A DNA stretch of 64,000 nt, taken from an uncultured Spirochaetales bacterium. GTDB taxonomy: Bacteria > Spirochaetota > Spirochaetia > Sphaerochaetales > Sphaerochaetaceae. The stretch spans positions 248,001-312,000 of the forward strand of contig CASFDW010000001.1 in NCBI GenBank assembly GCA_949293595.1, given 5' to 3'. The first letter of the stretch is position 1. Each line of letters starts with the position of its first letter. The translations under genes were made by a program, and so were the position numbers. This document shows positions 1-29,797 of the stretch, piece after piece. The notes beneath the pieces were generated by a model. The model was not told the origin of the DNA, did not search any database, and saw nothing but the letters and a program-made list of their open reading frames with translations.

Positions 1-735
1 TGCTGCAACCAGATAGAACGGAACGGAGATGCCTCCGTAGCGTGCCGCCCGGTCCTGTGCTCCCGCGGCCCTCATCTTGAAGCCTATCGTGGTCTTCCAC
101 ATGAGGATGAAGATGATGACGGCAAGAACGACCGCTATCACAAGCCCGTAGTGCAGACGTCCCGAAATCCTTCCAAGCCATGCGTTCCCGCTCAGCCTCA
201 TCGACTGCGGGGTGCCTCCCCCGCTCATCTTTTCAGCCGGATCCATCATGACGACGCGCAGGCAGAACGTGTAGAACTGTGCCGCAATATAATTGAGCAT
301 CACTGTCGACAGGAGTTCCGACACCTTCAGTTTTGCCTTGAGTATTCCAGGGATGAACCCCCATGCCGCACCTCCGAGCACCGATGCAAAAAGCGCGAGC
401 GGAAGCAGAAGCGGACGCGGAAGATCCGGAGCGGCGAGCGCAACAGCGGTGAAGGAAAGGATTCCCATCGCCATCTGGCCCTCTGCCCCGATGTTTATTA
501 TCCCGCTGCGGTATGCGACCGAGATTCCGATTGCGATTATGCAGAGCGGAATCGCTCTGATCAGGACCTCGGTGATATGCAGGCTCCGCGTGAGCGGAAG
601 TATGCAGATCGTATAGAAGGTTTTGCCTATATCCGCTCCGATGACAAGCAGTATCACACAGCTCAAAGCCATGGCCGCGAGGGCGGACAGTATGATTATC
701 GCTATCTTATAGCCGATTTTGAAACCTTTAGTCAT
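1..735 (-). CDS. BMP-type (nucleoside/riboflavin-like) ABC transporter permease, 3' part cut by window edge
   Basis: Translating the minus strand from the ATG at 735 gives 245 codons that run off base 1 with no stop. The start MTKGFKIGYKIAIIILSA is followed by several hydrophobic helices and the segment SGIINIGAEGQMAMG, which is typical of inner-membrane permeases of the BmpC/NupP/RfuC type (same superfamily as RbsC). It overlaps the upstream ATPase gene by 8 nt, so the two are translationally coupled. A second permease probably follows outside the window. The substrate cannot be read from the sequence: nucleosides or riboflavin are the known options for this family in spirochaetes. Confidence 0.85.
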   Translation of the reverse strand, partial: MTKGFKIGYKIAIIILSALAAMALSCVILLVIGADIGKTFYTICILPLTRSLHITEVLIRAIPLCIIAIGISVAYRSGIINIGAEGQMAMGILSFTAVALAAPDLPRPLLLPLALFASVLGGAAWGFIPGILKAKLKVSELLSTVMLNYIAAQFYTFCLRVVMMDPAEKMSGGGTPQSMRLSGNAWLGRISGRLHYGLVIAVVLAVIIFILMWKTTIGFKMRAAGAQDRAARYGGISVPFYLVAA

Positions 736-2251
736 CTTGAGCTACTCCTGCCATTAGAATACCCAGGGTACGCCTGTTGGCTTCCTCTCTGGGAAGAACC
801 TTCTGGATGCGGCCCTTGTAAATGACCGCGACGCGGTCGGAAAGATTGATGATCTCGTCCAATTCCTCGCTTATCAGGAGTATGCCCACCCCTTCCCTCC
901 TTTTTTGGAGCAGCTGCTGGTGGATGAACTCCACCGCGCCGAGATCTAGTCCCCTGGTGGGATAGACGGCGATCAGGAACCTGGCCCCACGGGTCAGCTC
1001 CCTTGCGAGGATTACCTTCTGGATGTTTCCTCCGGAAAGGGAACCACCGGCCGTGTTGATCCCGGGGCTTCTTATGTCGAAATCATTCCTGAGATCGGTC
1101 GCGTTCTTATCGATTGATTTCTTCTTCAAAAGCCTTTTGATAGAGAAGGGCTTTTTCTCGACATCCTTCAAAACAAGATTTTCCCTGATCGAAAAGGCCG
1201 GCACTATCCCCTCTATGTTCCTTTCTTCGGGGATGTAACCCATACCGTTTTCAATGACCTGGTTCGGATTGAGGTTCGAGATATCCTTGCCGTAGAACAT
1301 TATGGACCCCGATTCGACCGCCCTGATGCCGTTTATGGCCTCGGCGAGCTCCCTCTGTCCGTTGCCGCTCACTCCGGCAAGTCCGATGATCTCCCCGCTC
1401 CGCACCTGGAGCGAGAGATGGTCGAGCGCCAGATTCCCCCTGTCTCCATTCACACAGAGGTCCCTGACGTCGAGCACGACCCCGCCATGCATGTCCGGTT
1501 CCTCGTTTTTTGGAAGCTCGACCTCATGACCGGTCATCTTCGCCGCTATCTCGCTGGGGGAATAGTCGTCCGTGTTCCCACTGAACACAACCCTGCCGTG
1601 GCGGAGTATGGTGACCTTGTTCGAAAGAGCCTTGACCTCCTGGAGTTTGTGGGAGATGAATATTATCGAAAGCTCCCTGGACATGTTCTTCAACAGGACT
1701 ATCAGCTCGTCCGTCTCCTGCGGGGTCAGCGCACTTGTGGGCTCGTCGAGGATTAGGAACTTAGCACCGAGGCTGAGCGTCTTCACAAGCTCGACCCTCT
1801 GCTGCTCGCCAACGCTGAGCTGCCATATGTACGCATCGGGATTCACGGCCAGACCGTATCTCGTACTTACCTCCACCACCCTCTCGCGCACCATTTTCAA
1901 ATCGAGGATGCCATGCTTCCAGGCCTTCTTGTAGCCCAGCGCGACATTCTCCGTAACTGTCATGTTCTGAACAAGCATGTACTGCTGATGAACCATTCCG
2001 AGACCTGCATTGAAAGCATCCTCCGGACCGCGGAACCTGACCTCGTTGCCGTTGATCAGTATCCTTCCCTCGTCCTGCTGGTAGATGCCCATGAGTATGT
2101 TCATCAGAGTGGTCTTTCCGGCGCCGTTCTCACCAACCAGGGCAAGAACCTCGCCTTCTCCGACGCTGATTGAAATATCGTCGGCGGCAAGGACACCGGG
2201 AAACCGCTTGGTTATGTGTTCCATCTTGAGGCTTGTTATTCTGTTGTCCAT
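728..2251 (-). CDS. BMP-type ABC transporter ATP-binding protein with two fused ATPase domains
   Basis: 507 residues, the normal size for the tandem-ATPase subunit of ribose/nucleoside-type importers (YufO, NupO, RfuB). Domain 1 carries Walker A GENGAGKTT near residue 40, signature LSVGEQQRVE and Walker B FLILDEPTSAL. Domain 2 has a degenerate Walker A (GVSGNGQRE), signature LSGGNIQK and a changed Walker B (FLIAVYPTRGLD). One competent and one degenerate site is usual in this family. It works at the inner face of the membrane with the permease that overlaps its 3' end and the binding protein encoded just upstream. Confidence 0.92.
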   Translation of the reverse strand: MDNRITSLKMEHITKRFPGVLAADDISISVGEGEVLALVGENGAGKTTLMNILMGIYQQDEGRILINGNEVRFRGPEDAFNAGLGMVHQQYMLVQNMTVTENVALGYKKAWKHGILDLKMVRERVVEVSTRYGLAVNPDAYIWQLSVGEQQRVELVKTLSLGAKFLILDEPTSALTPQETDELIVLLKNMSRELSIIFISHKLQEVKALSNKVTILRHGRVVFSGNTDDYSPSEIAAKMTGHEVELPKNEEPDMHGGVVLDVRDLCVNGDRGNLALDHLSLQVRSGEIIGLAGVSGNGQRELAEAINGIRAVESGSIMFYGKDISNLNPNQVIENGMGYIPEERNIEGIVPAFSIRENLVLKDVEKKPFSIKRLLKKKSIDKNATDLRNDFDIRSPGINTAGGSLSGGNIQKVILARELTRGARFLIAVYPTRGLDLGAVEFIHQQLLQKRREGVGILLISEELDEIINLSDRVAVIYKGRIQKVLPREEANRRTLGILMAGVAQDD

Positions 2252-2321: not shown

Positions 2322-3344
2322 TCAGAGGGTTGAATAATCAACGCTGGACCAGTTGGCGAGCACGCCGGCACTGGCTTCGAACGACGCGAGGGCCTCATCG
2401 ACAGCCGCCTTGGCTTCCGCCGACACCTTGTCCTCGAGGGCCGGATTGTATTCAAACACGAATCCGCCGTTGTTGAAATTCATCGGGATGCACTCGCCGC
2501 CCTTGACTCCGGCCTCAAGCTTTTCCACGAGACCTACGATCACGGCCGCATAGTTGTAGGAGGATGCCGCAAGACACTTTGCCTTTCCCTCCTCGGTCGT
2601 CAGCTGCGCGAGATCCTGTCCGAGCCAGAGCGCCGTCGGACTTTCAGCGGTCGCCCTGAGGGCTCCGATGGCCTGCTGGGAGGAGCCGGTGAGCACGTCC
2701 GCACCGTTCTGGATCTGGCTTGTCGCGATTTCTCCCGCCTTCACGTAATCGGAGAACGAACCGGAATGGGTCACAAGGATCTTCGCGGATGGGTTCACCT
2801 TCTGCACACCGAGCACGAAGCCCCTGTTGTACCTTGCCGCATCACCACCGTCGACAGGTCCGACGAGACCGACGATGCCAGACTTCGTTGTAAGGCCTGC
2901 AATGAGTCCGGAAAGATATCCTGTCTCCTCGCTCTCCGGCATGTATGTGAACACGTTCGCAGGTCCGATCTCGCTGCTCGTTCCAAATGCGAACGATACA
3001 TCGGGATATTCCTCGGCAAGTTCAAGAATGATGTTCTTGTACTGCGCGCCGTGGCCGATTATGAGGTCGTAACCATCCGCCACATACTGCCTTGCTATGG
3101 ATCCCGCATCGACGACGGCCATCTTCTCGGAATAGCTGTAGTCGATCTTTCCTGGCAGCTGCTCCATTGCGGACATGATACCGTCATGCATGGCCTGGCA
3201 CCATCCCTTGTCGTCGATCGTGTTCTCGATTATGAGAGCGATCTTGATCGTGTCGTCGGACGACTCCTTTGTCTCCTGGGCGCCGCCGGCGAATACGCTC
3301 GTTGCAAGCAACAGGACGAGGGCGAAAACTAAAAACTTCTTCAT
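2322..3344 (-). CDS. BMP family ABC transporter substrate-binding protein (RfuA/PnrA-like)
   Basis: 340 residues. The signal peptide MKKFLVFALVLLLATSVFA is followed by mature GGAQETKE. There is no lipobox cysteine, so this is a signal-peptidase-I export signal, unlike the lipoproteins of Treponema. The body has BMP-family features: KIALIIENTIDDKGW at the start of domain 1, YDLIIGHGAQYK, and a GLVGPVDGGDAARYNRGFVLG segment in the ligand cleft. It captures the ligand in the periplasm for the ATPase and permease encoded downstream. The family includes nucleoside and riboflavin binders, and I cannot decide between them. Its leader carries an elaborate RNA structure and an extended -10 promoter. 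Confidence 0.9.
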   Translation of the reverse strand: MKKFLVFALVLLLATSVFAGGAQETKESSDDTIKIALIIENTIDDKGWCQAMHDGIMSAMEQLPGKIDYSYSEKMAVVDAGSIARQYVADGYDLIIGHGAQYKNIILELAEEYPDVSFAFGTSSEIGPANVFTYMPESEETGYLSGLIAGLTTKSGIVGLVGPVDGGDAARYNRGFVLGVQKVNPSAKILVTHSGSFSDYVKAGEIATSQIQNGADVLTGSSQQAIGALRATAESPTALWLGQDLAQLTTEEGKAKCLAASSYNYAAVIVGLVEKLEAGVKGGECIPMNFNNGGFVFEYNPALEDKVSAEAKAAVDEALASFEASAGVLANWSSVDYSTL

Positions 3345-3357
3345 AGCAAACCGCCTT

Positions 3358-3480
3358 GTTTACGGAAATAAGAGCGAACCCGTAAACGAGGTCTCTCCTT
3401 TAAAAGATTGAGAAGCACAGGCTTCTTATTCATCAGGTGGGGATTTGCACCCCTTGAGACTTGATCCCTGACAATCTCTT
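3358..3480 (-). promoter_or_regulatory. Structured 5' leader of the BMP operon, candidate riboswitch of unassigned class
   Basis: On the minus strand a 9-bp closing helix P1 (3472-3480 with 3402-3410, one G-U) encloses two arms. P2 pairs 3467-3471 with 3433-3437 and is extended by a GGGG/CCCC hairpin (3450-3453 with 3439-3442). P3 is a 6-bp hairpin (3421-3426 with 3411-3416). J1/2 and J3/1 are closed up and J2/3 is 6 nt. A second hairpin (3380-3387 with 3358-3365, 8 bp) lies just before the ribosome binding site and could be the expression platform. It lacks the conserved bases of the FMN, purine, TPP and cobalamin aptamers as I know them. Confidence 0.55.
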
Positions 3481-3493
3481 CATCTATTCATTG

Positions 3494-3502
3494 ATTATAC
3501 CA
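3494..3502 (-). promoter_or_regulatory. Extended -10 promoter of the BMP operon
   Basis: Minus-strand TGGTATAAT is a perfect -10 box with the TGn extension. The -35 region is weak. The predicted start near 3487 lies 7 nt before the P1 helix of the leader. The rest of the gap up to about 3745 is AT-rich and I see no gene in it. Confidence 0.65.
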
Positions 3503-8115: not shown

Positions 8116-9786
8116 TTAAAACAGTCCGCTTATGACCCCATCATCCGATATGTCGATACCCATTGCAGCCGGAACCTTCGGAAGTCCCGGCATGGTCATG
8201 ATATCCCCTGCATAGGCGATGATGAAGCCGGCCCCGGCATTCACCTTCACATCACGGATCGTTATTTTGAATCCATCGGGAGCTCCGATTTTCTTCGGAT
8301 CGTCGCTGAACGAATACTGGGTCTTGGCCATGCACACAGGGTATCCTCCATATCCTTCGGTCTCGGCCTTCCTTATCTTTGAAAGGACTCCGGGAGAGAA
8401 TACGACACCGTCCGCATGATAGATCCTGCGTGCCACGGTACGGATCTTGTCGGCGATGGACATGTCGTCGGGATACGTGAAGGCCCTGGCATTGGGATCG
8501 CATTTCTCCATTGCATCGAGCACCTTGCCGGCAAGATCGAGACCGCCGGCTCCCCCCTTCTCCCAGACTTCGCAGAGAGCGACATCCACACCTGTTTTTC
8601 CACAGAAGGTCCTGACATCGTCCAATTCCTCTTCTGTATCGGATGAGAAACGGTTCAATGCAACGACGACGGGCAGGTGCCAGACATCCCGGATGTTGAG
8701 CATGTGCCTTTCAAGATTCGCAAGCCCCTTTTTCAATGCGTTCCTGTTTTCGATGACCAAATCCTCCTTTGCAACCCCGCCATGGCTTTTCAAGGCCCGG
8801 ACAGAAGCAACGAGCACGACGGCGCTGGGCATCATCGATGCAAGACGGCACTTTATGTCTATGAACTTCTCTGCGCCGAGATCTGCACCGAAACCGGCCT
8901 CGGTCACGACTATGTCAGCCAGCTTCAGGGCCGTGCGGGTGGCTATCACGCTGTTGCATCCGTGGGCGATGTTTGCAAACGGACCTCCATGAACAAGGGC
9001 CGGAGTCCCTTCCAAAGTCTGAACAAGATTCGGCTTGACCGCATCCTTCAAAAGAGCGCATGCGGCTCCCTCTCCTTTAAGGTCGCCGAGCGTCACTATG
9101 CCATCGTCGTACGTTCGTGCGACAATGAGTCCCGCAAGCCGCTTTTTCAGATCGGCAAGATCGAGGGCAAGACAGAATGCGGCCATAACCTGGCTTGCGG
9201 TCGTGATCTCGAAACCGTCCTCGCGCGGAACACCGTTGCTTTTTCCTCCCAGACCGGAAATCATGAACCTGAGCTGTCTGTCGTTCATGTCCAGGCATCG
9301 TTTCCACAACACCCGTCTGGGATCTATCCCGAGCACGTTGCCCTGCTGGATCGAATTATCCACAAGAGCCGCAATAAGATTGTTCGCTGCACCGATGGCA
9401 TGGAAATCACCGGTGAAATGAAGGTTTATGTCCTCCATCGGGACAAGCTGGGCGTATCCGCCGCCGGCAGCGCCGCCCTTGAGGCCGAACACAGGACCTA
9501 GGGATGGCTCGCGCAATGCAAGACAAACATCCCTGCCCTTCCTCCGCAGGGCATCGGCGAGACCTATCGAAACAGTAGTCTTTCCCTCTCCTGCCGGAGT
9601 CGGATTGATTGCGGTGACAAGAACAAGCCGTCCCTTCTTGCCGATGGTTTTGAGACTCTTGTAATCCACCTTGGCCTTGTATCGGCCGTAATAATCCAAA
9701 AGGTCCTCCGGTATCGACAGTTCCGCAGCGACATCCCTTATGTGCCTCATCCTGCAACCTTGGGCAATCTCAATATCCGACAGCAT
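8116..9786 (-). CDS. fhs: Formate--tetrahydrofolate ligase
   Basis: 556 residues from the ATG at 9786, which has GGAGG seven nt upstream; the longer GTG frame would start inside that site. The ATP loop [18 protein letters not shown] lies near residue 60, and [14 protein letters not shown] and [11 protein letters not shown] are family hallmarks. The cytosolic enzyme makes 10-formyl-THF from formate, THF and ATP, which suits an anaerobe without much serine-derived one-carbon supply. It diverges from a CofE-like ligase gene across a 302-nt gap. Confidence 0.97.
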
Positions 9787-28644: not shown

Positions 28645-28649
28645 AATCA

Positions 28650-28720
28650 TGTCTAGGGGTGGCTTTCAGCCTGAGATCATACCCGTCAACCTGATCTGGA
28701 CAATGCCAGCGTAGGGAGCG
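28650..28720 (+). promoter_or_regulatory. TPP riboswitch
   Basis: Conserved thi-box bases are present in order: GGGGTGG, CAGCCTGAGATCATACCCG, AACCTGATCTGGACAATG and CCAGCGTAGGGA. Thiamine pyrophosphate binding would turn off the transporter genes that follow. The expression platform lies between 28720 and the GGAGG of thiB. Confidence 0.95.
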
Positions 28721-28774
28721 ACAACGCGTATACTTTCATCCCCGGACAGAATCAATTTCAAGGAGGACAAAAAA

Positions 28775-29797
28775 ATGAAAAGAATTGTCTCTTTCAGCCT
28801 GGTTCTCGTCCTAGCAGTCCTTTCAATTGCGGCACAGGGTGCCAAGGAGGACGGTACAGAGGAGAGGACCCTCACGGTCTATGCCTACGACTCGTTCTAC
28901 TCGGAGTGGGGTCCGGGACCGGAGCTCATCCCGCTCTTCGAGGAGAAGACCGGCATCAAGGTGGATCTCATAGGGGCCGGGGATGCAAACGAAATGCTCA
29001 GCCGCGTCATCCTGGAGGGTGACGGATGCCCTGCCGACGTAGTCATCGGCATTACGGACGACATGGCATACAAGGCATACGATGCAAATCTTTTCGAACC
29101 GTTCGAGAGCCCGTTGCTTGAGAACATCGACGAACATCTGTTCTTCGATCCCGAGCACAGGCTCATCCCGTTCGATTACGGCGTATTCTCGTTCGTCATC
29201 GACAGCGAAAGCGGAACAAGGGTTCCGGAGAGCCTGATGGATCTCACCGATCCGTATTACAAGGACAAGGTCGTGCTGATCGATCCCAGGACGAGCTCAG
29301 TTGGCTTGGGACTTCTGATGTGGACATACAACGTGCTTGGAGACGACTATCTTTCATGGTGGGAAGGCATGAAGGACAACATGCTGACAATGGCTGACGG
29401 ATGGTCGACGGCCTACGGACTCTTCACGGAAGGCGAGGCGCCTCTGGTGATAAGCTACACCACCAGCCCGGTATACCACGTTCTCAACGGAGAAGGAACA
29501 CGTTACCAGGCGGTCATCTTTGACGAGGGCCACCAGGAAACAATAGAGGCCATGGGCATCATGAAGAACTCCAGGCACAAGGACGAGGCAAGGCAGTTCA
29601 TGGAGTTCATCCTAACGGACGGACAGGCGGACATAGCCATCCTGAACTCCATGTACCCCGTGAACAACGCCACAGAGCTTCCCGATGCCTACCAGTGGGC
29701 ACCGAAACCGGAAAAGCTCTACAAAACTGATACCAATGTCGTCGAATTTGGTTTAGATGATATGATGGATGATTGGATAGAGGTGATGACGAAATGA
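28775..29797 (+). CDS. thiB: Thiamine ABC transporter substrate-binding protein
   Basis: 340 residues. Signal peptide MKRIVSFSLVLVLAVLSIAA; mature end QGAKEDG. ThiB/TbpA motifs: LTVYAYDSFYSEWGPGPEL, ADVVIGITDDM, IPFDYGVFSFV and GWSTAYGLFTEGEAPLV. It binds thiamine (or TPP) in the periplasm. The TPP riboswitch directly upstream confirms the assignment. It overlaps thiP by 4 nt (ATGA). Confidence 0.94.
   Translation: MKRIVSFSLVLVLAVLSIAAQGAKEDGTEERTLTVYAYDSFYSEWGPGPELIPLFEEKTGIKVDLIGAGDANEMLSRVILEGDGCPADVVIGITDDMAYKAYDANLFEPFESPLLENIDEHLFFDPEHRLIPFDYGVFSFVIDSESGTRVPESLMDLTDPYYKDKVVLIDPRTSSVGLGLLMWTYNVLGDDYLSWWEGMKDNMLTMADGWSTAYGLFTEGEAPLVISYTTSPVYHVLNGEGTRYQAVIFDEGHQETIEAMGIMKNSRHKDEARQFMEFILTDGQADIAILNSMYPVNNATELPDAYQWAPKPEKLYKTDTNVVEFGLDDMMDDWIEVMTK

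Follow-up and report, generated by a model that had tools for sequence, protein, structure and literature searches.

On balance, we read the leader of a BMP transporter operon, located on the minus strand of the window (the whole 64,000-nt stretch of spirochaete DNA analysed here), as carrying a bacterial example of the split ribosome-binding sites seen in phage T4 genes 25 and 38. According to this reading, 30S subunits would bind a distal Shine-Dalgarno (SD) sequence, AAAGGAG, while a 38-nt hairpin between this site and the start codon stays folded. The working SD-AUG distance would thus be reduced from 50 to about 12 nt and the AUG would thereby reach the P site, as in T4 genes 25 and 38. 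We infer that the folded hairpin is accommodated by ribosomes and that initiation in the window's species uses the distal SD; a conserved 5′ domain farther upstream (3472-3411) may tune or regulate the initiation step. By analogy with T4, bridging appears to be the most likely role of the hairpin.

A conserved leader precedes the BMP operon

The first gene of the operon (2322-3344, minus strand) encodes a BMP-family (PF02608) substrate-binding protein, which Pfam assigns to the Bmp/PnrA-like family; the one matching NCBIfam model scored far under its cut-off. The gene is followed by that of a two-domain ABC ATPase (728-2251, minus strand) and by two permease genes, the second of which lies entirely beyond the window. 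An extended -10 element had been claimed upstream, and TGGTATAAT is indeed found at 3502-3494 on the minus strand, where its resemblance to the consensus makes it a predicted promoter element; both sister species have TGATATAAT at this site. No good -35 element was found for TGGTATAAT.

By blastn, the leader was detected in 3 of 100 genomes, namely the window's own and those of two sister species, L004 (G003) and L005 (G024), which together with the window's species are referred to as the window trio. From TCAGG to the AUG, the leader is identical at 113 of 127 positions (~89%) to each sister species. Because identity between the window and the sister species is only 40-44% at fourfold-degenerate sites of the BMP gene, we conclude that the leader is under strong selection; upstream of the promoter, identity is 72-73%. 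Close orthologues outside the trio (~73-82% protein identity) are preceded by short leaders of the ordinary kind, in which the 5′ domain is missing.

An Rfam search of the leader (E ≤ 10) returned chance matches only, with best E-values of 4-9 and no family at gathering score. The leader had been proposed to be structured and to belong to none of the FMN, purine, TPP and cobalamin classes; the Rfam search agrees with the second statement, and a structured leader is likewise supported. The folding stability of the leader as a whole is unremarkable (z -0.93; 44 of 200 dinucleotide shuffles fold as well). It probably acts at the level of translation.

Two other regions were noted. The window contains a TPP riboswitch at 28645-28735 on the plus strand (RF00059, above the gathering score), and 40 nt past it lies an ORF (28775-29797) whose product resembles ABC binding proteins of the thiamine type; a permease-like ORF comes next. 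Outside the window, in L084, a gap of 416 nt (8278-8693) separates the last permease gene of the operon from a cluster for branched-chain amino acids (ilvN, ilvC, leuA, leuC-like); the gap has no Rfam match and is possibly an unassigned leader.

A hairpin separates the best Shine-Dalgarno sequence from the start codon

The best SD of the leader, AAAGGAG (3401-3395, minus strand), is located 50 nt before the AUG at 3344, is invariant in the three species and forms an anti-SD duplex of -8.0 kcal/mol, with the anti-SD being assumed because a search of the own assembly did not recover the 16S 3′-end pattern. The SD-AUG interval contains the hairpin CCT-c-GTTTACGG / CCGTAAAC-a-AGG (3391-3354, minus strand), consisting of 8 bp, a mismatch and a further 3 bp, which leaves 3 nt to the SD and 9 nt to the AUG in the window. 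The pair probability of the 8-bp core is ~0.99 in all three species. The original prediction had described GTTTACGG/CCGTAAAC as an 8-bp hairpin beside the ribosome site; the stem is present, but it lies between the SD at 3401-3395 and the AUG at 3344, and this splitting of the SD from the AUG, a layout common to the relatives described below, had been overlooked.

The geometry in the trio reads SD, 2-3 nt, a hairpin of 38-40 nt, 8-9 nt and AUG. When the hairpin is subtracted, the SD-AUG distance in the window is 12 nt, at or slightly above the 5-11 nt of T4. A scan of 464 kb of the own genome, conducted with no filter on a proximal SD, found the SD-hairpin-AUG layout at 2 of 2036 candidate ATGs near the beginnings of open frames, this site included.

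The trio also has a proximal SD-like sequence, AAGGCGG (3357-3351, minus strand), with an anti-SD duplex of -7.0 kcal/mol and a spacing of 5 nt to the AUG; its AGG is part of the 3′ arm of the hairpin. Because this sequence stands at ordinary spacing, unlike the situation in 13 relatives, the distal SD of the trio may be dispensable. The consensus fold of the three sequences, in which part of the distal SD is base-paired to the stretch immediately preceding the AUG, also counts against the split-site reading.

The 5′ domain is conserved in three species and is not closed by the proposed P1 helix

Within the 5′ domain, 59-60 of 70 positions are identical among the three species. The domain (3472-3411, minus strand) comprises a stem, GTCAGG/CCTGAT (3472-3467 with 3437-3432), a GGGG/CCCC hairpin with the loop TGCAAAT (3453-3439), and the hairpin AGAAGC-CTGT-GCTTCT (3426-3411), which had been named P3. 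The original prediction had placed these elements in a three-way junction closed by a helix P1 and had interpreted the whole as a metabolite aptamer. Its two-part P2 (TCAGG 3471-3467/CCTGA 3437-3433 plus GGGG 3453-3450/CCCC 3442-3439) and the 6 pairs of P3 (AGAAGC 3426-3421/GCTTCT 3416-3411) can be read from the sequence, as can the junction strands, with zero free bases at P1/P2 and P3/P1 and 6 at P2/P3. P1 is likewise paired in the window (AAGAGATTG 3480-3472 with CAATCTTTT 3410-3402; 9 pairs including one G-U), but it is not conserved, as both relatives have non-pairs at 2 of its 4 inner pair positions. In the consensus fold of the three sequences, P1 is absent, G3472 is paired with position 3432, and an extra 3-bp mini-hairpin with one compensatory change appears.

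The P2 and P3 pairs are kept yet nearly invariant in the three sequences, a variation that is too small to bear on an aptamer either way. With P1 failing in the relatives, the 5′ domain found in three sister species only and almost no covariation in P2 and P3, a P1-closed three-way-junction aptamer is not supported. The refuting outcome named in the original prediction, a lack of covariation or of conservation in relatives, was largely observed, and reading the 5′ domain as a metabolite aptamer is a guess. Generally, the neat fold of one sequence is weak evidence for a riboswitch. A model of the 5′ domain, run against 395 genomes of the class and 48 of the genus, gave weak matches only and no convincing member past the three known ones; the part of these matches that was compared with reading frames proved to be coding sequence, and one overlaps a tRNA. 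Phage records and viral contigs yielded nothing.

Two further candidates were set aside: the likeness of GGGGUGCAAAUCCCC to T-loop, cobalamin and FMN motifs, which is a likeness by eye only, and a pseudoknot formed by the UGCAAAU loop with GGUUUGC upstream of the AUG, the duplex energy of which lies in or near the shuffle range.

The 5′ domain might be a rare lineage-specific RNA that binds a ligand or a protein and melts or stabilises the bridging hairpin, so that a signal sets the SD-AUG distance, although we regard this as unlikely. If true, the leader would contain a regulated spacer in place of a masked SD.

Relatives share the layout with different hairpins

After the pattern was seen in the window, we surveyed the orthologous BMP gene in another 80 genomes from the family. 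In about 65 of these genomes, an ordinary SD is located 3-10 nt from the AUG, and in 2 the start is doubtful. In the remaining 13, the sole strong SD is 28-51 nt away from the start codon, a hairpin occupies the interval, and no SD lies close by. The geometry in these 13 relatives is 2-3 nt, a hairpin span of 19-37 nt, 8-12 nt and AUG, leaving 10-14 nt from SD to AUG when the hairpin is discounted. Their hairpins differ in sequence and length and have covarying arms, with inner pairs altered on both sides. When arms were swapped among the relatives, arms paired far better with their own partner than with the partners from other genomes, and this held with one sequence per lineage (-12.2 vs -8.0 kcal/mol, P about 1e-4). 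Searching with a model built for the element gave matches at E ≤ 5e-6 in 12 genomes, in each solely at the start of the BMP gene; the layout is almost confined to this gene. Upstream of the BMP gene, Sphaerochaeta-type leaders (L044, L046, L070, L072) have another small hairpin, for example GACCCAGTAAAACGGGTC, directly before an ordinary SD.

These relatives also bear on a different role for the hairpin of the window, which we consider possible though rather improbable: it could be a repressing stem that buries the AGG of AAGGCGG, with the 5′ domain binding a metabolite or protein and controlling its opening, as in a translational riboswitch or operator. The duplex of -7.0 kcal/mol at a 5-nt spacing, the AGG within the stem and the strong conservation of the 5′ domain would fit such a stem, and riboswitches are common at importer operons, such as the FMN riboswitch at the rfuABCD-like genes of Spirochaeta smaragdinae (PMC4418817). 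However, repression leaves unexplained both the perfect AAAGGAG at a fixed distance from the hairpin and the 13 relatives that lack a proximal SD. It is further weakened by the absence of an Rfam match, by the non-conserved P1 and the restriction to three species, and by the alternative pairings between the 5′ domain and the hairpin or start region, none of which clearly beats shuffles.

The layout changed repeatedly at one gene

On the BMP tree, the trio and a second lineage with the layout stand apart, ordinary-SD genes are closer to the trio, and at least 3 changes of state between split and unsplit are required. A single origin, modelled as a clade of exactly the split sequences, was rejected (p-AU 1e-50); a clade that additionally includes two unsplit sequences of the second lineage was borderline (p 0.047). 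We conclude from the tree that gain or loss of the layout occurred repeatedly at one gene. The hairpin sequence of the trio is unrelated to that of the second lineage while the geometry is shared, and because the sequences are unrelated and the branches separate, the two hairpins may differ in function. Within the second lineage, L048, L064 and G214 (L169) carry an ordinary SD, CAGGAGG, at a spacing of 6 nt and no hairpin, and represent a natural unsplit counterpart.

The inverted repeat could also serve a transcription factor as its operator in the DNA, or act as a 5′ stability hairpin, its placement between SD and AUG being incidental. In a DNA site, both arms would be conserved too, and GCAGG...CCTGC recurs as the outer sequence in the second lineage; nevertheless, the repeat span varies from 19 to 40 nt with pairing kept and near-fixed distances to SD and AUG, and the trio has the geometry in common but not the sequence, which makes this explanation very unlikely. 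Leader-peptide coupling, in which the distal SD would serve a short upstream frame whose end is coupled to the BMP start, is possible in 4 of the 13 relatives (an ATG 8-16 nt past the SD and a frame end ≤8 nt from the BMP AUG) but is very unlikely as an explanation, as the window and 9 of the 13 relatives have no such ATG frame and the TTG frames of L004 and L005 stop 18 nt short of the AUG and have been lost from the window. The leaders of G045 and G349 have neither an upstream ATG nor a proximal SD. The short ATG frames in the interval between SD and BMP AUG, found in G036, G002, G010 and G370 (L157, L158, L159, L168), comprise 5-8 codons. An N-terminal extension of the BMP protein was rejected, given an in-frame stop in the trio and spacer lengths that break the frame in relatives.

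Returning to the split-site reading, a layout that persists in many species while its sequences change, and that occurs in two distinct clades of one gene, provides natural replicates. With these, one can ask whether folded spacers are accommodated by ribosomes and whether the fold of a spacer is used by cells for control. In addition, predictors of start sites and SD sequences can misread such genes.

Comparison with known systems

Bridging by an SD-hairpin-AUG arrangement is best known from two genes of phage T4. In genes 25 and 38, the SD is remote and a hairpin reduces its spacing to the AUG to 11 and 5 nt, the reductions being from 22 to 5 nt and from 27 to 11 nt; mutations that destabilise the hairpin lower translation (PMC3014915). 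The leader described here resembles these genes in that a strong SD is too distant, a hairpin lies between it and the AUG, and the working distance would be shortened, here to about 12 nt. The phylogeny is patchy in both cases, as close T-even phages have the layout and distant ones do not (PMC3014915). Unlike T4 genes 25 and 38, the present case concerns a cellular operon, and has a larger hairpin span (19-40 nt) and an extra conserved 5′ domain; moreover, an additional SD-like sequence is found close to the AUG in the trio.

With the spirochaete rfuABCD genes and their FMN riboswitch (PMC4418817), the operon shares a structured leader followed by genes for a BMP-type binding protein, an ATPase and permeases. 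It differs from them in having neither an FMN nor another Rfam match, no sign of riboflavin and a 5′ domain confined to three species.

Among the open-access papers that we searched, the precedents found were the T4 genes and Escherichia coli thrS; other bacterial cases may exist. The thrS leader also has a split ribosome-binding site, and a deletion from A-14 to U-48 removes the hairpin upstream of its SD (PMC3936740). Like the BMP leader, thrS is a cellular mRNA, and a folded hairpin is accommodated there within the ribosome-binding site. Unlike in thrS, where the hairpin is positioned upstream of the SD with a single-stranded region farther 5′ (PMC3936740), the hairpin of the BMP leader occupies the interval between the SD and the AUG.
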